64,000 nt of DNA. Origin: Sulfolobales archaeon Acd1 (GTDB lineage Archaea; Thermoproteota; Thermoprotei_A; Sulfolobales; Sulfolobaceae). The stretch spans positions 248,001 to 312,000 of the forward strand of contig APJY01000001.1 in the NCBI GenBank assembly GCA_000389735.1, given 5' to 3'. Position 1 is the stretch's first letter. Each line of letters opens with the position of its first letter. This document shows positions 59,715 through 61,742 of this stretch, piece after piece. The translations under genes were made by a program, and so were the position numbers. The notes under the pieces were generated by a model. The model saw only the letters and a program-made list of their open reading frames with translations, had not been told where the DNA came from and ran no database searches.

Positions 59715-60854
59715 TTATTCGTGGATCTTTCTCCACATCTCCCTGGCCAGCTCACCGTCGTACATGTACTTATCCACTAGGCTCTTCGCCTCCTCCCTCC
59801 TCTGCCTGTGGGTTTCTAGGAACTCGTTCAACTTCTCTATCAGGATCTCCTTCAGTTCCCCCGTCAGGAGCTTTCCGCTCCTGTACTCTTCCTCTATTTT
59901 CTTGATCTTCTGGTCGTCGGGTTCGAAGAACATGTATAGGTACTGGAACGACACGTCTATGTCCGGATTCCCCCCGTATTTGCGGTGCAACTCGATTGTC
60001 GGTTGCCCTCCCGAGAACGCGTATTTCATTATCTTAGTCCTCACAGTCTTGGGTTCGTCGGTGAGGTAGATCGTATACTCGGGCAACGAGGACGACATTT
60101 TTCCCTCAACTCCCGATAAGGGCGGGAAGAACTTGCTGTGGATGGCGGCGGTCTTGTAGTAGCCCAGACTTTCAGCGATGTCCCTCTGCAGCCTCCAGTA
60201 GGGGTCTTGGTCTATGCCCGCAGGTATCAGGCACCTTCTCTTCTCGAACATCGTAGGAACGATCTGAAGGGCAGGGTAGAAGAGCAGACCTATGTTGGTG
60301 GACTCGTTGAATCCGAAGGTCGCCCTGACCTCATTGAACGTGAGTTTCTTCGCCACCTTTACCGCCAGGGGGTACATGTTCCTGATGTATTCGGTATCGA
60401 GGAAGATGAACGTCCTGTCCGGGTCGAAGCCAACGGCCGCTATGTCCAGGATGTTGTCCTTGGCCCACTCCCTGGTCTCCTCTAGGGTGTAACCGGCCTT
60501 CTGCAAGAACTTCTCGTCGTCCGTCACCTCTATGTAAACGTTGACCTTGAACACGTCCTGAAGCCACTTGGTGAAGATGAAGGGAATCAGGTGCCCTATG
60601 TGCATCCCCCTGGAGGGTCCTCTACCGGTGTAAAGGAAGAACCCCTTGCCCGCCTTGTGGTCCTGGAGAACCAGATCGAGATCCCTGTGGGAGAAAAAGA
60701 CGTCCCTCCTCAGGAGGACGTGTAACTCCCCGGCCAATTTCCTGATCTCCTCCTTGAGCTCGGGAGTTATCCTCTTGGTGCCGAACTCCTGAATCAGCTT
60801 GTCGTAGTCCACCTTACCTTTGACTTCCCAGGGCGTTACCTCGAACTCCGGCAT
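59715..60854 (-). CDS. trpS: Tryptophanyl-tRNA synthetase
   Basis: 379 residues, archaeal/eukaryal type. Class I signature GRGPSRGMHIGHLIPF (HIGH) and GKMSSSLPEYTIYL (KMSKS). FNESTNIGLLFYPALQIVPTM and LIPAGIDQDPYWRLQRDIAE form the Trp pocket. The enzyme looks complete. A TTAAAT tract lies about 28 nt before ATG 60854. Confidence 0.96.
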   Translation of the reverse strand: MPEFEVTPWEVKGKVDYDKLIQEFGTKRITPELKEEIRKLAGELHVLLRRDVFFSHRDLDLVLQDHKAGKGFFLYTGRGPSRGMHIGHLIPFIFTKWLQDVFKVNVYIEVTDDEKFLQKAGYTLEETREWAKDNILDIAAVGFDPDRTFIFLDTEYIRNMYPLAVKVAKKLTFNEVRATFGFNESTNIGLLFYPALQIVPTMFEKRRCLIPAGIDQDPYWRLQRDIAESLGYYKTAAIHSKFFPPLSGVEGKMSSSLPEYTIYLTDEPKTVRTKIMKYAFSGGQPTIELHRKYGGNPDIDVSFQYLYMFFEPDDQKIKKIEEEYRSGKLLTGELKEILIEKLNEFLETHRQRREEAKSLVDKYMYDGELAREMWRKIHE

Positions 60855-60993: not shown

Positions 60994-61110
60994 TTAAGAA
61001 GACTTGAGCTTGGCCTTCAGCCTTTGCTCGGCGACCTTCTGTGCCTCCTCTAAGATCTTCTTTACCTCCTCCGATTTGGAGTAACTGGGGGTATAGTAAC
61101 GGTAGCTCAT
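60994..61110 (-). CDS. 38-residue protein copying the C-terminal helix of the CdvB paralogue
   Basis: ATG 61110 overlaps the stop of the CdvB paralogue by 4 nt (ATGA), and the frame ends with TAA at 60994. After a Tyr-rich head (MSYRYYTPSY), residues 13-35 (core VKKILEEAQKVAEQRLK) match residues 175-197 of the gene just upstream (core AKKILEEATLIAEQKMK): 14 of 23 identical without gaps. The copy is therefore a tandem duplication of the ESCRT-III tail helix expressed as a separate micro-protein. It might modulate polymer ends, but no function is shown. It is below the usual gene-calling length. Confidence 0.72.
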   Translation of the reverse strand: MSYRYYTPSYSKSEEVKKILEEAQKVAEQRLKAKLKSS

Positions 61111-61742
61111 AGCTTGTTACCCATCGCAACTGCTCCAGCCGGTAGGGACGGGAATTTCTCCTTCATCTTCTGCTCCGCTATTAAGGTGGCCTCCTCCAGG
61201 ATCTTCTTCGCCTCAGGAGAAGCCGCGAAGCCCACGCCCGAAGAGCCTGTGAACTCTCCCGCGGCCAACGCGACCTCCTGTAGTCCTTCTCCCACTTGGT
61301 CCAACTCTATCGCCAGCTCAGGCATGATGCCCTTTATCACGCCCTTGAGCTCCTTGATCACACCTATTACAGGGGCCAGGCCGACCATCACGTCGCCGAA
61401 CTCGGTTATCGTTTCCAGCCTGAGAGAAACCTGTTCTAGGGCGAGCTGGGTGGCCAGCAGGCTCTTCGCCGCTCTCCTTATTTCAGCGACCTCGTTGGCG
61501 TACATCGTAGCTCTCATCTTGTCGTTATTCTGAAGAGCCTCCACAATCCTCTCGAAGAGGCTCCTGTCCCTCTCTTCCAGCCTGTTTATGTAGACCTCTA
61601 GCCTACTTATTATGGACCTCAGCTGATACTGGGACTGTACGATCCTGGTCCTGAGGGGCGTCTTAGACTTAAAGGGATTGGACCATCCGGGGCTCTTCTC
61701 AGTACCTTCCCACATCTTTATGAAGGATTTGTCCAGGGCCAT
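61107..61742 (-). CDS. ESCRT-III-like division protein, CdvB1/B2-type paralogue
   Basis: 211 residues from ATG 61742; TTG 61748 is possible, with TTATATCAA (about 61771-61780) 27 nt from it. Basic N-terminal helices (TPLRTRIVQSQYQLRSIISRLEVYINRLEERDRSLFERIVEALQNND and on) form the Snf7-like hairpin. MRATMYANEVAEIRRAAKSLLATQLALEQVSLRLETI is the second long helix, and acidic helices (MPELAIELDQVGEGLQEVAL) follow. It lacks the C-terminal winged helix that binds CdvA, which marks CdvB itself, so it is a B1/B2-type paralogue. These polymers constrict the membrane at division and are recycled by CdvC (Vps4). Confidence 0.9.
   Translation of the reverse strand: MALDKSFIKMWEGTEKSPGWSNPFKSKTPLRTRIVQSQYQLRSIISRLEVYINRLEERDRSLFERIVEALQNNDKMRATMYANEVAEIRRAAKSLLATQLALEQVSLRLETITEFGDVMVGLAPVIGVIKELKGVIKGIMPELAIELDQVGEGLQEVALAAGEFTGSSGVGFAASPEAKKILEEATLIAEQKMKEKFPSLPAGAVAMGNKL

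Follow-up and report, generated by a model that had tools for sequence, protein, structure and literature searches.

The division gene cdvB1 of a deep-branching Sulfolobaceae genome, the sole genome of its genus, is followed by a 38-codon frame (hereafter micro-ORF) that is best described as a real, non-random and so far unique stand-alone frame for ESCRT-III helix alpha5, with a putative coding function. The frame is built from a known domain. The reading that we prefer, with a probability of about 0.4, is that it encodes a translationally coupled alpha5 microprotein, whose translation and binding we infer, and which would dock on the CdvB1 core and tune its open/closed state. Coordinates refer to the window, i.e. 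the whole stretch of 64,000 nucleotides that was analysed, in which the relevant features are the following.

61107..61742, minus strand: cdvB1, 211 aa, with ESCRT-III core and MIM2; orthology from trpS synteny and sequence
61155..61217, minus strand: cdvB1 codons of helix alpha5, residues 176-196, from an AF2 model on a 26-sequence alignment
61140..61154, minus strand: cdvB1 MIM2 core FPSLP, residues 197-201, matching the motif phi-P-x-phi-P
61107..61110, minus strand: ATGA stop/start overlap of cdvB1 and the micro-ORF, read from the sequence; expected site of termination-reinitiation
60994..61110, minus strand: micro-ORF, 38 aa, ATG start, MSYRYYTPSYSKSEEVKKILEEAQKVAEQRLKAKLKSS, from frame and translation
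61003..61074, minus strand: micro-ORF residues 13-36, homologous to alpha5, SEEVKKILEEAQKVAEQRLKAKLK, aligning with CdvB1 S175-P198
60855..60993, minus strand: gap between micro-ORF and trpS, 139 bp, AT-rich, with the T-rich stretch TTTTCGTTT just past the micro-ORF stop
59715..60854, minus strand: trpS, whose place downstream of cdvB1 is conserved in most Sulfolobaceae

A bare helix alpha5 behind cdvB1

The gene at 61107-61742 is CdvB1, with core, MIM2 and trpS neighbour all in place. Its product shares 55-62% of its residues with CdvB1 of relatives; it scores 303 bits against NCBIfam CdvB1_B2, under the curated equivalog cut-off of 350, and is thus a divergent member. With a mean pLDDT of 83, the AF2 model of this protein matches 9s98, a subunit of the CdvB2 filament (TM 0.90), and closed CdvB 9s9j (TM 0.88), and places alpha1 at residues 30-71, alpha2 at 75-115, alpha3 at 118-137, alpha4 at 141-165 and alpha5 at 176-196. 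Residues F197, P198, L200 and P201 of its MIM2 are invariant in 26 homologues.

The host genome also encodes CdvA, CdvB, CdvC, CdvB2 and CdvB3, the gene for CdvC, which has an MIT region, adjoining that for CdvB. All four ESCRT-III paralogues (61107-61742 and loci L038, L095 and L143) fall below the NCBIfam equivalog cut-offs, so that automatic annotation may leave them unnamed. Host CdvB (L143, G000:C1:693751-694587, outside the window) is 33-42% identical (mean 38%) to the CdvB of 29 Sulfolobaceae loci, which among themselves average 64% identity (minimum 48.5); host TrpS is much less divergent than host CdvB. By these sequences, the CdvB ring protein seems to have evolved fast in the host lineage.

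The micro-ORF lies on the same strand as cdvB1 and overlaps it by 4 nt, the arrangement expected of a translationally coupled pair. A reading of this DNA made from its letters alone (hereafter the sequence-only reading) had described a 38-residue micro-gene coupled to the ESCRT-III gene and starting in its stop (ATGA), and we recover the same frame and the same overlap. An overlap of 4 nt is the usual form of coupled genes in archaea; it couples them tightly and is over-represented among subunits of complexes (PMC10666635). Ahead of the micro-ORF start, the best Shine-Dalgarno-like match (-3.8 kcal/mol) does not rise above background, being equalled by 32% of random sites. As the T-rich stretch comes right after its stop, the micro-ORF is probably part of the cdvB1 transcript. 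Its product would consist of a short Tyr/Ser-rich N-terminus followed by helix alpha5, with the stop directly after the helix, and a single-sequence AF2 model gives a helix at residues 10-37 (mean pLDDT 78). Codon usage over the frame scores 0.232, versus 0.230 +/- 0.117 for genes, a value attained by only 3.2% of the open windows in wrong frames. Its first 12 codons show neither homology nor gene-like codon use (-0.18).

The identity of 14/23 residues with the CdvB1 tail helix, which the sequence-only reading had already reported, is far from what chance provides. The local alignment of the micro-ORF with CdvB1 scores 73, while shuffled versions average 25.6 +/- 4.0 (maximum 46, with 0/5000 reaching 73); elsewhere in the window, 5416 stretches of 38 codons are open, and none reaches this score (maximum 43). 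The aligned residues 13-36 correspond to CdvB1 175-198, where the AF2 model has alpha5. The helix also matches the NCBIfam models CdvB1_B2 (E 9e-5), CdvB3 (E 1e-4) and CdvB (E 0.003), alpha5 being common to CdvB, CdvB1, CdvB2 and CdvB3. Coverage is limited to positions 175-200 of 212 in the CdvB1/CdvB2 model (NF041005) and 137-162 of 164 in the CdvB3 model (NF041009); alpha5 is thus present, and the Snf7/ESCRT-III core alpha1-alpha4 is absent from the 38 residues by either model. Searched against the whole host genome, the micro protein convincingly matches itself, the CdvB1 tail and the CdvB2 tail, and nothing else. Eleven alpha5 positions vary little or not at all in 26 CdvB1/B2 homologues; at these, the micro protein keeps 8 residues and shows conservative changes at two more (A to V, M to L).

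What follows alpha5 in CdvB, CdvB1 and CdvB2 is MIM2, the Vps4/CdvC-binding element, which is missing from the CdvB3 class (PMC8970359). The micro-ORF has LKSS and a stop where CdvB1 has FPSLP: the MIM2 core phi-P-x-phi-P is not found in it, with 0/4 key residues kept, nor does it match the MIM1 pattern [DE]xxLxxRLxxL[KR]. It thereby shares with CdvB3 (NF041009) an alpha5 at the C-terminus without MIM2, ending 2 residues past the aligned segment. The predicted product is a bare alpha5 lacking MIM2, with homology confined to that helix. Recruitment to CdvC MIT domains, which the sequence-only reading had named as binding partners to be tried, loses ground with the absence of these motifs, and the absence of MIM2 makes an alpha5 acting in trans the better reading.

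Parentage and distribution of the micro-ORF

The micro-ORF alpha5 shares 17/24 residues with a CdvB1/B2-type protein of another family, 16/24 with CdvB3 of genus g7 and 14/24 with its own CdvB1. Being no closer to its neighbour than to other paralogues, it is not demonstrably a copy of cdvB1 itself. The sequence-only reading had seen in it a free copy of the tail of the protein just made; the part that holds is the free helix of a polymer-forming division protein, while cdvB1 as parent is doubtful, since the helices it resembles most are the alpha5 of other paralogues in other genomes. DNA identity neither dates the copy nor points to a clear parent, with 22-28 differences in 72-75 nt from own CdvB1/B2. 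Over the three codon positions, the differences number 8, 7 and 13 versus own CdvB1, and 7, 7 and 9 versus own CdvB2.

Pairwise neutral tests on the similarity score gave P values from 5e-5 to 0.13, depending on the branch to which synonymous changes are assigned, and are weak (P 0.03-0.13) if the nearest own paralogue carries these changes. Comparison with foreign helices is more telling. The micro-ORF alpha5 has a mean BLOSUM score of 58.1 against 52 foreign alpha5 (a thinned set, picked by similarity to known alpha5), while neutral copies of the own CdvB1/CdvB2 alpha5 with 16-26 nt changes score 14-31 and never reach this value, and even copies with 8 nt changes do so in under 1%; a recent copy from elsewhere would also pass this test. 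By the same measure it is more typical than the alpha5 of the host's own CdvB3 and CdvB. As the helix is nearer to foreign alpha5 than neutral decay would leave it, either selection has maintained it or it was copied recently from an alpha5 outside the sample. Gene-like codon use, ATGA coupling and this proximity to foreign helices point indirectly to a coding frame.

The sequence-only reading had taken the lack of a conserved frame in relatives as grounds for refuting its idea, and as far as the available genomes go, no such frame emerged. Among the 31 Sulfolobaceae genomes, from 11 genera, none besides the host has a stand-alone copy; the matches listed for the 214 genomes of the order include no stand-alone homologue; and the complete list at E <= 0.01 for the class (229 genomes with the host) has none in the 228 others, every other short frame on it lying at a contig end. 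There is no similar frame 3' of the gene at 40 further cdvB1/B2-type loci of the order, and phage and plasmid collections gave no match. In relatives, trpS or another gene comes directly after cdvB1, and the cdvB1-trpS gap of 252 bp compares with about 36-91 bp in most Sulfolobaceae relatives. The micro-ORF is possibly a young, genus-specific gene, the genus being represented by one genome.

Several candidates for other stand-alone tails were discarded. Frames of 36-120 aa matching the micro-ORF in genomes G203, G204, G205 and G140 are ESCRT-III genes truncated by contig ends; with its start at base 21 of the contig, a 36-aa frame in G214:C141 is probably another such cut gene; and a 36-aa frame in G125 has little similarity to the micro-ORF. 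The contig end G214:C141:21-309, from a different order of the class, carries a facing pair of alpha5-like tails, an arrangement that suggests convergent ESCRT-III genes. Gene neighbourhoods also vary: in genus g9 (L020, G125), cdvB1 is followed by a frame resembling the start of a CDC48/VAT-type ATPase, not by trpS. In many Sulfolobaceae (loci L003, L021, L062, L066 and L076), a phosphoenolpyruvate-synthase-like frame comes after cdvB2, much as trpS does after cdvB1.

A proposed trans-acting alpha5 and its alternatives

In closed CdvB and CdvB2, alpha5 lies on the alpha1-alpha2 hairpin; in semi-open CdvB, it is swung out by about 120 degrees and MIM2 is exposed for Vps4 (PMC12818579). On the preferred reading, termination-reinitiation at the ATGA would yield the micro-ORF peptide along with CdvB1 and in ratio to it. 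The free alpha5 would bind in trans on the hairpin surface that is normally covered by the cis alpha5 of CdvB-type proteins, either filling the site once the cis helix swings out or competing with it. CdvB1, and perhaps also CdvB2 or CdvB, would thereby be shifted between closed and open states, so that the ring is capped or softened. As it lacks MIM2, the peptide itself would escape pulling by CdvC/Vps4. Several points speak against a trans-acting alpha5: in S. acidocaldarius, the ring did not recruit a LacS fusion carrying the C-terminus of CdvB (PMC12909875); a conserved copy is found in 0/228 other genomes of the class, with one genome in the genus; the pairwise neutral test is weak under the assignment of synonymous changes given above; and at growth temperature a lone short helix may be a weak binder. 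The fuller proposal, namely a genus-specific microprotein kept at a fixed ratio to CdvB1 that controls the state of the ESCRT-III division polymer and that CdvC could not remove, in a lineage where CdvB has also changed fast, appears rather unlikely.

The main alternative, quite conceivable at odds somewhat below those of the preferred reading, is that the micro-ORF is a duplicated piece without function, copied from the 3' end of an ESCRT-III gene and possibly left by a lost paralogue beside cdvB1, which is open by chance and perhaps translated. Its absence from every relative examined would fit such an origin, as would the non-homologous and not gene-like first 12 codons and the near-even spread over codon positions of the differences from own CdvB2. 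Moreover, ATGA overlaps are common, stretches of 38 codons are fairly frequently open by chance, and after neutral decay the helix part would be free of stops with a probability of about 0.4-0.5. However, the micro-ORF alpha5 is far more typical than a neutral CdvB1/B2 copy would be at the observed divergence. A non-functional duplicate would need to stem recently from an alpha5 found neither in this genome nor in the sample.

Other functions can be imagined for the same segment. Binding to the CdvC/Vps4 motor, with the helix entering or blocking the Vps4 pore or contacting the MIT domain and so slowing ring disassembly, is improbable in our view. In yeast, Vps4 does bind Vps2 at a second site, helix 5 (PMC8143795), and its pore binds the Vps2-derived peptide F, DEIVNKVL (PMC6602582); a comparable micro-ORF segment, SEEVKKIL (SPEAKKIL in CdvB1) has 4/8 residues identical to it and 2 more similar, and a CdvC with an MIT region is encoded by the host. 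Peptide F, however, binds no better than diverse peptides (PMC6602582), so that this resemblance carries little weight, its positional homology to archaeal alpha5 is putative, and the micro-ORF has neither the MIM2 core nor a MIM1 match. That the frame matters as sequence only, shielding the cdvB1 stop from ribosomes or the transcript end, or spacing cdvB1 from the trpS promoter, is very improbable: its position between the cdvB1 stop and the T-rich stretch ahead of trpS and the lengthened cdvB1-trpS gap are compatible with this, but the alpha5 amino-acid similarity and the gene-like codon usage of the helix would go unexplained. Least credible is a C-terminal extension of CdvB1 by a second alpha5 through programmed -1 frameshifting near the stop. 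The two frames do overlap at the end of cdvB1, with the micro frame in -1 register, but a TAA in the micro frame two codons before the ATG means that the shift would have to fall within AACAAGCTA, in which we see no slippery heptamer; we rejected such a fusion from the sequence.

Significance and known systems

Helix alpha5 is the switch element of ESCRT-III, lying on the core when closed and swung away when semi-open. A natural gene for alpha5 without the Vps4-recruiting MIM2 would separate two functions of the ESCRT-III tail and would be a ready tool for probing the role of alpha5 in the division ring, of which the micro-ORF may encode a small regulator. Even as a mere scrap of duplication, it would show how a stop-start overlap can give rise to such microproteins. 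In some microproteins, one interaction element of a larger, multi-element homologue stands alone. We found no ESCRT-III or Cdv case of such a single-segment microprotein in the literature searched, in agreement with the sequence-only reading, which was not aware of any such protein described for the Cdv system.

Among the known systems closest to the micro-ORF are the C-terminal alpha5 and MIM2 of CdvB1/CdvB2 (NF041005; structures 9s97-9s99), with a homologous helix, 14-15 identical residues and, for cdvB1, an adjacent gene; unlike this tail, the micro-ORF has neither core nor MIM2 and would be a separate product. CdvB3 (NF041009), a Snf7 core without MIM2, likewise ends just past alpha5, and CdvB3 of genus g7, ESEEVKKVLEEAEKIANEELKEKYKAPA, is the best single match (16/24), but CdvB3 has about 170 aa and all of alpha1-alpha5, the micro-ORF is alpha5 only, and the host has a separate cdvB3. 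Peptide F in the Vps4 pore is a short segment from the same region, similar to SEEVKKIL, but it is artificial and its binding is reported not to be sequence-specific (PMC6602582). Finally, the Did2/CHMP1 MIM helix on Ist1 (PDB 3ggz) offers a mechanistic analogy, in which the tail helix of one ESCRT-III protein sits in trans on the core of another; there, however, the helix is a MIM within a full ESCRT-III protein and not a stand-alone alpha5.
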